A stretch of 39,739 nt of DNA from Acetofilamentum sp. (GTDB taxonomy: Bacteria > Bacteroidota > Bacteroidia > Bacteroidales > DYOH01), in contig DYOH01000028.1 of the NCBI GenBank assembly GCA_020720625.1, positions 1 to 39,739 on the forward strand, given 5' to 3'. Positions 15,994 to 22,412 of the stretch are shown piece after piece. Positions within the stretch are counted from its first letter, which is position 1; each line of letters opens with the position of its first letter. Below the pieces are notes generated by a model. It was not told the DNA's origin and made no database searches. It was given only the letters and a program-made list of their open reading frames with translations. The position numbers and the translations under genes are program-made.

Positions 15994-17766
15994 ATGGAAC
16001 TAAAAACAATTTATGATATTTTAATTTATTACGCCGAAGTAAACCCTACGAAACAGGATGCTCTTGTGCAAAAGGCTGAGGGACATTGGGTAAAATACAG
16101 CATTCAGGAGTATAAAAATATTGTAGATAATTTAGCTATAGGACTTTATGCATTAGGAATTGAAAAAGGTGATATTGTTGCCACCATGAGCAATAACTCC
16201 CCACAGTGGAATTTTGTGGATATGGCCACAGCCAAACTCGGAGCAATACATGTATCGGTTTACTCAAATCTGTCTGACGAGGATACAGCCTATATTTTAA
16301 ATCATTCCGAAGCGAAGATAATTTTTGCAGGTGAAAAAGAATTTTATCAAAAAATTAAACGTGTATATCCAAGTTTAGATATTATCCCCTTGATTTTTAC
16401 TTTCGATGAAATACCACAAGCGCATAATTTTGATGAAATTATTGCTCTAGGGACAAAACGTAGCATCAATTATGAAGATAAAGTTGAAAAAATATTTCAA
16501 AGCTTAAACGAAAATGACATACGGTCTATTATCTATACCTCTGGCACAACCGGCATGCCCAAAGGAGTTATGCTCAGCCATAAAAACTTTTTAAGCAATG
16601 TTAAAGCCGCATCATCCTTATTACCTTTAGAATCTGATGACAGAATAATTAGTTTCTTGCCCATCAGCCACGTGCTTGAGCGAATGCTCATTTATTTGTT
16701 TCAATATAAACAAGTATCTATCTATTATGCCGAGAGTGTAGAGAAATTGGTAAGTAACATACAAGAACTAGAACCATCGGGATTTGGCGCAGTGCCCCGC
16801 TTAATCGAAAAAGTGTATGGCAAAATCGAACAAAAGCAAGACGAATTAAAAGGCATAAAAAAAATATTGTACAAAAGGGCTTTAAAATTAGCCGAAAGAT
16901 ATGAAGAAAATGGATTAAAATCTTCTTTAGACAAGTTTTGGCATGCCATTTACGACAAGCTTATTTATTCCCAATGGCGAAAAGCACTTGGTGGCAATAT
17001 AAAACTTATTCTGGTGGGAGGCGCGGCACTGCAACCAAGGTTGGCAAGAGCTTTCAGAGCCGCCGGAATCAAACTTTCCGAAGGATACGGTCTTTCCGAA
17101 ACTTCGCCTGTTGTGGCCGTTAATGGGGAAAATTTTCCTGAAATAAAATTTGGTACCGTTGGTCCTATTTTACCCGGTGTGGAAGTTAAAATTGCCGAGG
17201 ATAAGGAAATTCTTATTAAAGGACCAAACGTAATGCTTGGATATTACAAAGACGAAAAAGCCACCAAGGCAGTTTTTACCCCCGATGGATGGTTTAAATC
17301 CGGCGATATTGGCGAAATGATTGAAAATAAGTTTCTTAAAATCACCGATAGGAAAAAAGAAATATTCAAACTATCTACCGGTTTGTATATTGCACCGCAA
17401 GTTATCGAAAATATTTGTAAAAAATCGGAACTTATTGATCAGATTATGATTTTGGGCGAAAACGAGAAATTTGTGGCAGCGCTTATTGTTCCCGATTTTA
17501 AAGTTTTAACAGAGAAAGCTATTGACCTGAAAATCCGCACGGGCGACCATTACCATTTGGTTCAACAACAAGAGATTATTCAACTATTTGACAGAGAAAT
17601 TGCTGCAATAAATATGGAATTGAGTAAAATTCAGCAAATTAAAAAATTCCGGATCACAGCAAACGAATGGTCGGTAGATAGCGGAGAGTTGTCGCCAACG
17701 CTTAAGTTAAAGCGCGAAGTTATTAAAAGCAAATACAATGATTTTATTAAAAAAATATACACTTAA
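15994..17766 (+). CDS. Long-chain acyl-CoA synthetase (AMP-forming), copy 1
   Basis: This 590-residue member of the ANL superfamily activates long-chain fatty acids to acyl-CoA via acyl-AMP, for degradation or membrane lipid assembly. Core motifs are intact: A3 IIYTSGTTGMPKGVMLSH (179-196), A5 GYGLSETSP, A7 DGWFKSGDIG, A8 ITDRKKEIFKLS, and the C-terminal lysine motif PTLKLK with K571. The family is the FadD15/ACSL-like bacterial group rather than acetyl-CoA synthetase, judging by ESVEKL and REALG-type linkers. A second, similar gene starts 12 bp after its stop, suggesting one transcript. Fatty-acid chain specificity cannot be read from motifs. Confidence 0.92.
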   Translation: MELKTIYDILIYYAEVNPTKQDALVQKAEGHWVKYSIQEYKNIVDNLAIGLYALGIEKGDIVATMSNNSPQWNFVDMATAKLGAIHVSVYSNLSDEDTAYILNHSEAKIIFAGEKEFYQKIKRVYPSLDIIPLIFTFDEIPQAHNFDEIIALGTKRSINYEDKVEKIFQSLNENDIRSIIYTSGTTGMPKGVMLSHKNFLSNVKAASSLLPLESDDRIISFLPISHVLERMLIYLFQYKQVSIYYAESVEKLVSNIQELEPSGFGAVPRLIEKVYGKIEQKQDELKGIKKILYKRALKLAERYEENGLKSSLDKFWHAIYDKLIYSQWRKALGGNIKLILVGGAALQPRLARAFRAAGIKLSEGYGLSETSPVVAVNGENFPEIKFGTVGPILPGVEVKIAEDKEILIKGPNVMLGYYKDEKATKAVFTPDGWFKSGDIGEMIENKFLKITDRKKEIFKLSTGLYIAPQVIENICKKSELIDQIMILGENEKFVAALIVPDFKVLTEKAIDLKIRTGDHYHLVQQQEIIQLFDREIAAINMELSKIQQIKKFRITANEWSVDSGELSPTLKLKREVIKSKYNDFIKKIYT

Positions 17767-17778
17767 CCTAGTTTAATT

Positions 17779-19578
17779 ATGGAAGTAACTCGATTTTTTG
17801 ATATTCTGGACAAGCTTAAAGCCGAAATTCCTTCGAAATTCGATATTTTGAATGCTAAAGAAGGAAATACGTGGAAACACTACAGCGTTGAAGATTTTTA
17901 CAATTATGCCAATTGGTTTAGTTTTGGTTTGATGAAAATGGGTCTGGAAAAAGGGGATAAAATTGCTACAGTAAGCGAAAATCGTCCGGAGTGGAATTTT
18001 ATCGATATGGGAATGTCGCAGCTCGGAATTATTCATACGCCAATTTATCCAACCATTAGCGACGATGATTATACCCATATTTTGAGTCATTCTGAATCGA
18101 AACTTATTTTTGTTTCAAATGCATCCTTATACATTAGATTGACCGAAATTACCAAAAAGATACCACAAAAACCTGAAATCTATACTTTTGATCAGCTAGA
18201 AGGGGCAAAAAACTGGATGGAAATTACCAATTTGGGCAAATCATCGGAGGATGTTTACATGCGGGGCAAACTCACCAATATCAAAAACAGTATTTCTAAG
18301 GATGATATTGCCACCATAATATACACCAGCGGAACCACAGGCATTTCAAAAGGTGTAATGCTTACTCACTGGAATTTCATTTATCAACTTTACCAGATTA
18401 AGAAGAAAATAAATCTTAATCACGAGCATACCAATTTTAGTTTCTTGCCGCTTTGCCATGTACTCGAAAGAATTGTTAACTATACATTTTTATTTCTCGG
18501 TTTAAGTATATATTATGCCGAAAGTAGCGAAAAAATTGCTGAAAACATAAAAGAAGTAAAACCTCACGTAATTGTTACTGTTCCAAGGTTATTGGAGCGT
18601 ATTTACGACAAAATTGTGCAAAAAGGCAAAGAGCTTGATGGCCCAAAACGTAATTTATTCTTCTGGGCGCTCGATTTAGCGCTTAAATATGAACTAAATG
18701 GAGCCAATGGCGTACTTTACGAGACCAAACTTGCACTTGCCAATAAGCTAATTTTTTCGAAATGGCGCGAAGCTTTAGGCAACAGAATGCAGTATATTAT
18801 TAGTGGAGGTGCTGCATTACAACCCCGCTTGGCACGCGTATTTTGGGCTGCCAAAGTGAAGGTGCTCGAAGGTTATGGTTTAACGGAAACGGCGCCTGTT
18901 ATTTCGGTAAACTTACCAGACCCAAAAGATACAATGTTTGGCACTGCCGGACCGATCTTAGGTATTGAGCAGCAAGTGATGATTGCCGAAGACGGCGAAA
19001 TTCTTTTCAAAGGACCAAATCTCATGCCCGGATATTATAAAAGTCCCGAAAAAACAGCCGAAGTTATTGATAGCAACGGTTGGTTTCATACCGGCGACAT
19101 TGGCGAGTTGGTAGACGGAAAATTCCTGAAAATTACCGATCGTAAGAAGGAAATTTTCAAACTTTCCACCGGAAAATATGTGATGCCTCAGTTAATCGAA
19201 AATGTGCTTAAAGAATCGCTTTTTATTGAACAAGCAATGGTGGTAGGAGATAACGAAAAATATACAGGTGCACTTGTTTCTCCTAATTTCGAATATCTGC
19301 ACGATTGGGCTTCGATTAAAAAATTGCATTACCGCGATAATCGCGAGCTGATTAGTTTGCCTGTGGTTGTGGAGCGCTTTACCGAAGAAATTGCCGAATT
19401 AAACAAACGATTGGGTAAAACACAGCAGATTAAAAAATTCCAACTGGTGTGCGAGCAATGGACTACCGACGGCGGCGAACTTTCGCCTACTTTAAAACTA
19501 AAACGACGTTTTGTAGCACAAAAATATGCCTGGCGAATAGATCAGGTTTACGATCGACATAAGGAATCCGGAAAATAA
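17779..19578 (+). CDS. Long-chain acyl-CoA synthetase (AMP-forming), copy 2
   Basis: This 599-residue paralogue of the preceding gene has the same ANL architecture, with A5 GYGLTETAP, A7 NGWFHTGDIG, A8 ITDRKKEIFKLS and the terminal PTLKLKR. The A3 loop is IIYTSGTTGISKGVMLTH (180-197), where the usual Pro of TGxPKG is Ser; this loop residue is well conserved but not catalytic. The two copies share many blocks but differ enough (for example KKINLNHEHTNFSF versus LLPLESDDRIISF) that they are older paralogues and not a recent duplication. They likely divide substrates. A long bidirectional hairpin terminator follows at 19601. Confidence 0.92.
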   Translation: MEVTRFFDILDKLKAEIPSKFDILNAKEGNTWKHYSVEDFYNYANWFSFGLMKMGLEKGDKIATVSENRPEWNFIDMGMSQLGIIHTPIYPTISDDDYTHILSHSESKLIFVSNASLYIRLTEITKKIPQKPEIYTFDQLEGAKNWMEITNLGKSSEDVYMRGKLTNIKNSISKDDIATIIYTSGTTGISKGVMLTHWNFIYQLYQIKKKINLNHEHTNFSFLPLCHVLERIVNYTFLFLGLSIYYAESSEKIAENIKEVKPHVIVTVPRLLERIYDKIVQKGKELDGPKRNLFFWALDLALKYELNGANGVLYETKLALANKLIFSKWREALGNRMQYIISGGAALQPRLARVFWAAKVKVLEGYGLTETAPVISVNLPDPKDTMFGTAGPILGIEQQVMIAEDGEILFKGPNLMPGYYKSPEKTAEVIDSNGWFHTGDIGELVDGKFLKITDRKKEIFKLSTGKYVMPQLIENVLKESLFIEQAMVVGDNEKYTGALVSPNFEYLHDWASIKKLHYRDNRELISLPVVVERFTEEIAELNKRLGKTQQIKKFQLVCEQWTTDGGELSPTLKLKRRFVAQKYAWRIDQVYDRHKESGK

Positions 19579-19875: not shown

Positions 19876-21033
19876 CTATCTTCGGATAAAAATAAAATCA
19901 CCCCCTTCGTCGCCAACATTGCTTATTTCGCCGTATTGTGGCACTACTTCGCTGTTGTTGATAACTGCAGAGCGAAAACTGGTAAATAATTGCTCGGTAG
20001 AGATGTATTTTTGCTCATTATTTTTTAATCGCCTAACCAAATAATGTAAAAAGGGACTTTCATCCGGCACTTGGGTGAGCGTACCACTCGTCATGGCTTT
20101 TCGGCTGGGCAACTCGTAAAGCTTGTTTATGGCATTTGTGGCATCGTTAAAGGCTGCGCGGGTTTTAAAAATACCGCCACCAAAACATGCATCGGCAATA
20201 AGCAAAGTGTGCTGTGAGTTTATTTCTTTGAGATAATCGCGCAAAGTGCTATTTCTAAACCATTGAGCTTTAGAGCTTTTTTTCGCATCGGCTGGCAACC
20301 AATAACCTAGCTGTGCAATAGAATCCCAATGACCGTGGCCGGCATAGAATATCAAAAAATTATCGTTAGGTTTTATTAATCGGGAGTATCGGTCCAATTC
20401 CTCTTCCATTTCCACACGAGAAGGATTTTCAAGGAAAGTAACATTCTCTTTATCAAAGGTATAATGCTCTATCAGCGCATTCATAAATTCTTTGGCATCG
20501 CGTACAGGTTTGTCTAAATCGTTAATTTCGATATCCTGGTATTCCGACACTCCAATTATCAAAGCATAATATTTGCCTGCTACAGATGGAGCTTCTTCGG
20601 ATGCTTCTGAGATGACTGCCGCTTGCAGAGGCTCGTACTCTATTGTATAGCTATGTTCAAACAGATATCCGGCATTATCTTTGGCTTGTACGAGCAGCGT
20701 TTGGCTTCCTTCGCTCAAAAATGTTTTGTGCTTAAAACTGCCATCTGGTTCTACTTTTACACTTTGGCCGGCAATTTTAAAATATTCCAAACCGGAGCGA
20801 TCGGTAATTATGCCGCTAATAAGAATTTCCTGCGAATTTACAACCGGCTTAAATGCGCGGCTTAAACGTGGCGAAATAAAGCTTACATCAGGAGGCACAG
20901 TATCCACAACGAGCTTAATTTTACTCGATTTTTCCGTTGTTTTTAAGCTGATTTTATTACTCGAAACCGTCTGTCCTGCAATGCTTCCCGCAAAAAAAGT
21001 GAGTAGCATTATCCATCCCACAAATTTTTTCAT
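19876..21033 (-). CDS. Secreted caspase-family (C14-like) peptidase with Ig-like domain
   Basis: This 385-residue protein starts with a signal peptide (hydrophobic 6-20, likely cleavage near IAGQ). Residues about 47-135 look like an Ig-like or bacterial 'stalk' domain: PPDVSFISPRL, ILISGIITDRSGLEYFKIAG, DGSFKHKTFLSEGSQTLLVQAKDNAG. The caspase fold follows: YYALIIGVSEYQD (155-167), catalytic His in IFYAGHG (H233) and catalytic Cys in ADACFGG (C283). Both dyad residues are present. In this family cleavage is often after Arg/Lys, but specificity is not visible here. It is the downstream partner of the 22286 gene (TAATG overlap), and both are exported, which suggests a joint extracytoplasmic role. 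Confidence 0.88.
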   Translation of the reverse strand: MKKFVGWIMLLTFFAGSIAGQTVSSNKISLKTTEKSSKIKLVVDTVPPDVSFISPRLSRAFKPVVNSQEILISGIITDRSGLEYFKIAGQSVKVEPDGSFKHKTFLSEGSQTLLVQAKDNAGYLFEHSYTIEYEPLQAAVISEASEEAPSVAGKYYALIIGVSEYQDIEINDLDKPVRDAKEFMNALIEHYTFDKENVTFLENPSRVEMEEELDRYSRLIKPNDNFLIFYAGHGHWDSIAQLGYWLPADAKKSSKAQWFRNSTLRDYLKEINSQHTLLIADACFGGGIFKTRAAFNDATNAINKLYELPSRKAMTSGTLTQVPDESPFLHYLVRRLKNNEQKYISTEQLFTSFRSAVINNSEVVPQYGEISNVGDEGGDFIFIRR

Positions 21034-22286
21034 TACTTTTCTATTTTAAATTTAGATGTATAGATAAAATTGGCATTATTCTCCTTATCTGTAAATTTGA
21101 GTTGATAGTCGTCGCCCTTTTCTTCACTTTCATTAATTTTCCAATTGTAAAAGCCTTTATTTTCAATGATGTCCAAAGTTTTTACAAGTTTTTCGTCCTT
21201 GTATAGTTCTACTATTAAATAACTTGCTTTTATCATGTTCTCGAAAATTACCGGAACGCTGGAGCCTCTTTTGTATGCTTCGCTCATTTTTAGTGTTGAA
21301 CTAACACCTGTTTCCTTTCTTATCAATTCCTCTCTAATTTCCGATTTTACTTTATATTTTCCGTTCAAAATAGTAAATATATTACTAATAATATAGTTTG
21401 CAGGATTTGATGCATCTTCTATTTTTAATTGTGCGTTAAACGACAGTTCTAAGGATTCAGGAATATCCCAAAGGTAAGATTGATTGCTTGTAACGTCAAT
21501 AACTCTATCGAATTTATTATTAAGGTATAGCGAAATTTTGTAATTTTCAGCCAATAGTGCATTTGTCCAGTTAATCACATTAGGAGATTTGGAAAATTGT
21601 GCCAAATCCACGTAAAAAGCATGTTTCCAATCAAAGTCTACAGAATTAACTTTACTTTTTGTAATTATAAAAGGGTTACTCAATACAAAATCATTGACAT
21701 TGTTTTTATTCACCATTTTAATTTGATAGTTTTTACCATCAATATTTTTGGGTTGCCAAGTGTATTCTTCTTTTTTTGTAATAAAATCAATCATCATTAA
21801 TTTTTCACCATTTTGATGCAGCTCAATAATCATTTCTGCATCGGGGTCGTTTAATCGGAAATAGAACGTATTTGGCGATTTATTGCTAAATTCGTTCGGA
21901 ACCCAAAAGAAATTATTATTGTGTGCAAAAACACTGCTGTATTTGGGTTTGATTTTTGTTAGCTTTATTTCAAATTCAATTTCTTCACTTAACTGCATTC
22001 CTTCTGCTTTATAATCCCAAATTAATTCATTGTTGCCGTTTTGAATATTTTCGCCAATGTTTCCGGTGGTTTTCTTCAAGGGTGTAACATAGTTATCAAG
22101 CGATGTGTATAATTTGGCGTCCAACTTTAGATTCGATGGATTATCGATGCTATACTTAATCAGGATTTTTCCTTGAGATACCTCCGCCGCATTTAACGAT
22201 ACTGTTTGGCCATAATGGCTAAAAAAAGCTGAGATTAAAATTACGCTAAGTAGTAGTTTTTCATTTTTCGATTGTATTTTGAACAC
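21033..22286 (-). CDS. Secreted three-repeat beta protein, partner of the caspase gene
   Basis: This 417-residue exported protein (signal peptide to about FSHYGQ, residue 27) starts with GTG: no in-frame ATG lies upstream before a TAA, and the next Met is too far inside. It has an N-terminal beta domain ending in ELIWDYKAEG (87-96). Three tandem units follow, each with a strand pattern Y/V..L..(x)K/N..., a Trp about 20 residues later (W177, W273, W382) and an ending such as SNPFIITK, SNIFTILN or SKFKIEK. This pattern resembles Kre9/Knh-like or fibronectin-like beta domains, a similarity I inferred from pattern and not from a search. It overlaps the caspase start by one base (TAATG), so the pair is likely translationally coupled. 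Function unknown. Confidence 0.75.
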   Translation of the reverse strand: MFKIQSKNEKLLLSVILISAFFSHYGQTVSLNAAEVSQGKILIKYSIDNPSNLKLDAKLYTSLDNYVTPLKKTTGNIGENIQNGNNELIWDYKAEGMQLSEEIEFEIKLTKIKPKYSSVFAHNNNFFWVPNEFSNKSPNTFYFRLNDPDAEMIIELHQNGEKLMMIDFITKKEEYTWQPKNIDGKNYQIKMVNKNNVNDFVLSNPFIITKSKVNSVDFDWKHAFYVDLAQFSKSPNVINWTNALLAENYKISLYLNNKFDRVIDVTSNQSYLWDIPESLELSFNAQLKIEDASNPANYIISNIFTILNGKYKVKSEIREELIRKETGVSSTLKMSEAYKRGSSVPVIFENMIKASYLIVELYKDEKLVKTLDIIENKGFYNWKINESEEKGDDYQLKFTDKENNANFIYTSKFKIEK

Positions 22287-22377: not shown

Positions 22378-22412
22378 AAAAAAAACTATCCATGCTTGTT
22401 GATGGATAGTTT
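22378..22412 (-). terminator. Rho-independent terminator after the MGL-like gene
   Basis: Perfect 11-bp stem AAACTATCCAT (22383-22393) with ATGGATAGTTT (22402-22412) and an 8-base loop. On the minus strand it is followed by a T-run (A-run at 22378-22385 on plus), so it acts for the gene ending at 22500. Confidence 0.85.

Follow-up and report, generated by a model that had tools for sequence, protein, structure and literature searches.

Two adjacent genes in the window, the 39,739-nucleotide stretch of DNA analysed here, which comes from an uncultured Bacteroidales bacterium, are best explained as a protease system of the Bacteroidota envelope, with a partner protein that, through its N-terminal domain (NTD), anchors or positions an exported caspase. 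We assign this reading a probability of about 0.45. Fixed gene order, recurrent fusion, and co-divergence of the NTD with the caspase suggest, at the level of sequence, that the system is physically coupled. We infer physical contact within the pair, its cleavage specificity, its location, and its anchor role.

Both genes lie on the minus strand, with the repeat protein first and the caspase second, and base 21033 is common to both. This one-base overlap and the GTG start of the first gene, which a first-pass annotation of the same DNA had pointed out, are both present. The annotation also held that both proteins are exported, and hydropathy agrees: each has one N-terminal hydrophobic stretch resembling a signal peptide.

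21033..22286, minus strand: partner gene, GTG start, 417 amino acids, predicted to be exported; NTD and three Kre9/KNH-type Ig-like repeats
19876..21033, minus strand: caspase gene, ATG start, 385 amino acids, predicted to be exported; Glucodextran_B Ig-like domain and Peptidase_C14 domain
22383..22412, minus strand: terminator-like stem-loop from a pattern match, 11 pairs and then a T run

The terminator-like stem (22412-22383) sits between the upstream gene for a PLP-dependent Cys/Met enzyme and the pair, so that partner and caspase probably form a separate two-gene unit, as judged from a scan whose count of such sites was no higher than in shuffles. Downstream of the pair lies a convergent acyl-CoA-ligase-type gene. 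Two tandem AMP-binding (acyl-CoA ligase-type) genes at 15994-17766 and 17779-19578, convergent with the pair, belong to ordinary metabolism.

The second gene encodes a metacaspase-like C14 protease that, judged by its residues, is probably catalytically active:

20638..20841, minus strand: Glucodextran_B Ig-like domain, residues 65-132 (Pfam E 4e-8)
19879..20586, minus strand: C14 caspase domain, residues 150-385 (Peptidase_C14 profile match spanning 156-360)
20335..20337, minus strand: codon of catalytic His233, in AGHGHW
20185..20187, minus strand: codon of catalytic Cys283, in DACFGG

Peptidase_C14 (PF00656) matches the window caspase with an E-value of 1e-17 (64.7 bits vs. a cut-off of 21.4), and the intact His233/Cys283 dyad that had been reported behind an Ig-like domain is in place, the Ig-like domain being Glucodextran_B. 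H233, C283, D179, and D281 are invariant in 93/93 caspase relatives. D179 and D281 align with Asp residues of metacaspase-4 in the metacaspase acidic pocket, which we take to set Arg/Lys specificity at P1, so cleavage after Arg or Lys would be expected of this enzyme. Single-sequence searches found no solved-structure relatives for the partner or the caspase; through the caspase profile, the nearest solved structures are metacaspases (6w8s, 4f6o), followed by MALT1. The protein shares its C14 domain, His/Cys dyad, and invariant acidic residues with prokaryotic metacaspases and orthocaspases (MEROPS C14), but differs from prokaryotic metacaspases in its predicted export, its position behind a Glucodextran_B Ig-like domain, and its dedicated NTD partner. 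Among NCBIfam models, the caspase domain scores best against the EACC1-associated caspase (NF047832, E 5e-21), but at 75.2 bits it does not reach the curated cut-off of 140, and no EACC1 neighbour is present in the window. PADLOC matched the caspase to a generic caspase model (E 1e-9) and returned no match for the partner. An anti-phage defence role was not favoured: this generic match is all that points to it, and cytoplasmic defence would not be expected of two proteins that both appear to be exported.

The first gene encodes a chain of beta domains:

21948..22208, minus strand: NTD, an N-terminal beta domain of about residues 27-113, common to partners of, and fusions with, other exported caspases
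21654..21941, minus strand: Ig-like repeat 1, about residues 116-211, with W177
21348..21605, minus strand: Ig-like repeat 2, about residues 228-313, with W273
21036..21290, minus strand: Ig-like repeat 3, about residues 333-417, with W382 and a Kre9_KNH stretch at 373-415

The three tandem units that had been proposed around W177, W273, and W382 proved to be true repeats of Kre9/KNH Ig-like type, with these residues in place (W90, W128, W220, and W240 are the other tryptophans) and pairwise local alignments 7.4, 10.6, and 11.5 sd above shuffles. The Pfam Kre9_KNH model matches two stretches of the window partner (E 2e-9, 38.3 bits vs. a cut-off of 24.6). Compared with the known Kre9/KNH-like Ig domain proteins (PF10342) that the repeats match, the window adds the NTD and an exported caspase. 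Structure prediction, which had been suggested as a check on the repeat units, yielded an AlphaFold2 model (mean pLDDT 73, pTM 0.40) in which a beta domain at the N-terminus (strands 28-111) is followed by three others (116-209, 236-313, and 343-415). A fold comparison of the repeat protein, which barely covered the NTD, returned Ig, fn3, and macroglobulin-type beta domains with Z of about 8 or less, reflecting common arrangements only; a likeness to complement C3 and alpha-2-macroglobulin was not taken as meaningful. No C-terminal membrane helix is predicted in the window partner; anchoring by this protein would therefore be indirect.

The NTD, of about 85 residues, had no model in Pfam or NCBIfam scans; our own profile, of 13 rows with the window sequence among them, matches the window partner at E 7.6e-23. 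A first PF00656 family search of the window's own genome missed the window caspase, so relatives were sought with protein and alignment queries. Of 99 genomes, made up of the window's own and its order-level relatives, 35 contain caspase relatives, and the own genome has several paralogues. Searching public genomes with a caspase profile yielded 79 related loci with caspases, and the NTD profile, run over their 929 ORFs, gave 46 matches, 18 of them fused at the caspase N-terminus and 28 in separate genes. Among the separate genes, 27 are the immediate upstream neighbour of the caspase and share its strand, at spacings between -68 and 174 bp (P 5e-31 for 27/28 by the hypergeometric distribution, ignoring phylogeny), and the 28th (L142) has the same orientation but stands two genes ahead of the caspase. 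The pairing thus survives the neighbourhood comparison proposed in the first-pass annotation, which had put the two genes forward as a coupled pair: the pair is conserved and not a product of chance adjacency, but the conserved link is the NTD rather than the three repeats.

Phylogeny and an independent search point the same way. When 93 caspase domains are placed on a tree, the window falls in a supported clade of 28 rows, all of them paired (28/28), and the paired and fused states change at least three times each, so that the NTD-caspase linkage sits in several separate branches; about 38 of the 93 caspases have neither an NTD neighbour nor a fusion. NTD and caspase distances correlate across 28 pairs (r 0.53, Mantel P 5e-4). 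When the NTD was sought independently of the caspase in 99 order-level genomes, 17 of 52 matches had a close-family caspase no more than 4 kb away, where 0.41 would be expected. With distant C14 caspases counted too, 35 of 61 NTDs were fused to one or within four genes of one (a hand-counted union), and many of the remaining NTDs sit at contig ends. Genomes of the window's order also hold more NTD-caspase fusions, beyond the 18 in the 79 loci. Reichenbachiella versicolor (L142) and Perlabentimonas gracilis (L138) are cultured relatives that have a paired or fused form.

The repeat protein as a whole was discarded as the conserved half, because wide recurrence is limited to its first ~110 residues: in 98 order-level genomes it has no full-length relative, its N-terminal part recurs, and its repeats are found in one genome. 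The only full-length orthologue pair found is in a Bacteroidales MAG (L065), where the partner (L065:2-1222; E 1e-97, 41% identity to the window partner) contains three Kre9_KNH stretches (E 1e-16, 61.5 bits) and is followed after 90 bp by a caspase 68% identical to that of the window.

Several further arrangements were seen in caspase loci. Five caspase genes follow one another in Flavihumibacter soli (L134:8642-19629). Very large LamG/FG-GAP-like surface proteins (about 1,000-3,200 amino acids) are encoded upstream of the caspase in L119, L132, L104, and L085, and those genes overlap the caspase by 4 bases in L119 and L132. A recurrent secreted protein of ~300 amino acids with a motif like TxGxAQxELxxxxSR is found near distant NTD-caspase pairs (L174_3, L191_6, L064_1, L180_9, and L175_3). 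MAGs with Chlorobiota and Calditrichaceae labels (L076, L114, and L122) also contain close relatives of the caspase, which reflects either a wider range or misbinned contigs.

Among the pairs, the C-terminal part of the partner is exchanged while the NTD is retained, which is the pattern expected of an adaptor. The DUF5683 model (PF18935) picks out a similar membrane module in 20 of the 27 partners that lack the repeats, with weak scores (best E 1e-5); this module of most NTD partners is replaced in the window by Ig-like repeats, and three such units serve as the C-terminal module in both the window and L065. In a paralogue pair from the window's own genome (L046), a gene encoding the NTD with Fib_succ_major lies directly upstream of the caspase. 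FGE is the C-terminal module of the L062 partner, the L056 and L057 partners carry uncharacterised modules, and the L104 and L132 partners combine one Kre9/KNH-like unit (sub-threshold in Pfam) with a hydrophobic C-terminal stretch. In the main clade, one lipoprotein family directly follows the caspase in about 27 loci (e.g., L067_3 and L068_8), and a relative of it (L053:11511-13445) carries fn3 and Fib_succ_major; after the caspase of the window and of L065, this lipoprotein is absent.

In the adaptor reading, the second gene would supply an exported metacaspase-like cysteine protease with a His/Cys dyad, and the first its dedicated adaptor, whose conserved NTD would dock the caspase, as fusion and adjacency lead us to propose. 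The exchangeable C-terminal part would decide where the protease is located or what it is brought to, and would itself lead to a membrane, a lipoprotein-like target, or an Ig-like one. In the window variant, a three-Ig rod would bind, or extend as far as, a structure at the surface or in the periplasm, and the partner would unite roles that its relatives divide between partner and downstream lipoprotein. The repeat protein had earlier been cast as a target, an anchor, or a sensor; an anchor or adaptor is favoured over a target because the NTD is recurrently fused to the protease and most separate partners bear the membrane module; the partner may instead be a sensor.

Sensing is central to another account, conceivable though in our view unlikely, in which the NTD protein is a regulator, prodomain- or inhibitor-like, that silences the exported caspase until its C-terminal part meets a ligand. 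Such a sensor-regulator accounts for most of the same facts as an adaptor: many relatives carry the NTD at the N-terminus of the protease, which is the position of a prodomain, and a separate NTD is encoded upstream; the NTD diverges faster than the caspase (mean identity over pairs 38% vs. 65%), as a ligand-facing part might; and the C-terminal modules of the partners include domains often used for binding. In the fusions, however, the Glucodextran_B Ig-like domain separates the NTD from the protease, unlike a classic short prodomain, and many caspase relatives have no NTD at all. An AlphaFold2 model of a natural NTD-caspase fusion is too low in confidence (pTM 0.37, with a poor caspase part) to reveal how the two parts pack, and provides no structural evidence that the active site is blocked.

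The NTD also occurs without a caspase, together with Trypsin_2, Fib_succ_major, or FGE, and is therefore not caspase-specific. Outside the order it is rarer, with a caspase next door in 4/14 phylum-level loci and no adjacent caspase in the other 10/14; in some of these loci large surface proteins adjoin it. In L181:4375-6714 and L212:5601-7856, the NTD forms a fusion with TPR repeats and a protease domain of the Trypsin_2 type, with a DUF5683-like stretch in L181, so that the same domain is coupled to another protease class. That the NTD accompanies trypsin-like, Fib_succ_major, FGE, and large surface proteins as well would suit a general surface-protein domain, the two window proteins then serving one envelope process from one operon without contact, yet recurrent NTD-caspase fusion and a fixed gene order across a deep clade make this improbable.

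Pairing, fusion, and module exchange are worst explained if the repeat protein is a caspase substrate, released or remodelled by cuts at basic linkers (about residues 210-235 and 313-331). The linkers between the Ig-like domains are Lys/Arg-rich and of low model confidence, and they fit the cleavage after basic residues that passages of PMC6426788 describe for metacaspase-like enzymes. We nevertheless consider this distinctly improbable: conservation falls on the NTD, a domain that other lineages have fused to the protease, most pairs carry unrelated modules in place of the repeat part, and linker length and sequence differ in the sole orthologue (L065).

The first-pass annotation did not recognise the arrangement as described, and the open-access literature likewise yielded no description of a coupled NTD partner or of an NTD, DUF5683, or Fib_succ_major link to a caspase. 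A 2012 survey (Asplund-Samuelsson, PMC3501461) reports, in its passages on this subject, FGE(-sulfatase) domains in 4.9% of prokaryotic caspase homologues and diverse operons, and those passages make no mention of an NTD-type partner; its neighbour analysis was Pfam-based and therefore could not have named a domain for which Pfam has no model. The protease itself belongs to the known C14 metacaspase/orthocaspase kind, and it is the coupled partner that lacks a description in open-access papers. We tentatively propose, at somewhat less than even odds, an undescribed Bacteroidota envelope system in which an NTD adaptor brings exported metacaspases, and in some cases proteases of trypsin-like type, to exchangeable targeting or sensing modules, the window being its three-Ig-rod variant.

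Bacterial caspase homologues are many, and most are without known function. A partner that recurs both as neighbour and as fusion offers a direct handle on that function, as it predicts a binding partner. It also defines, in the NTD, a domain that went unrecognised in the Pfam and NCBIfam scans. The pairing would assign the protease to the cell envelope and not to death or defence pathways of the cytoplasm.
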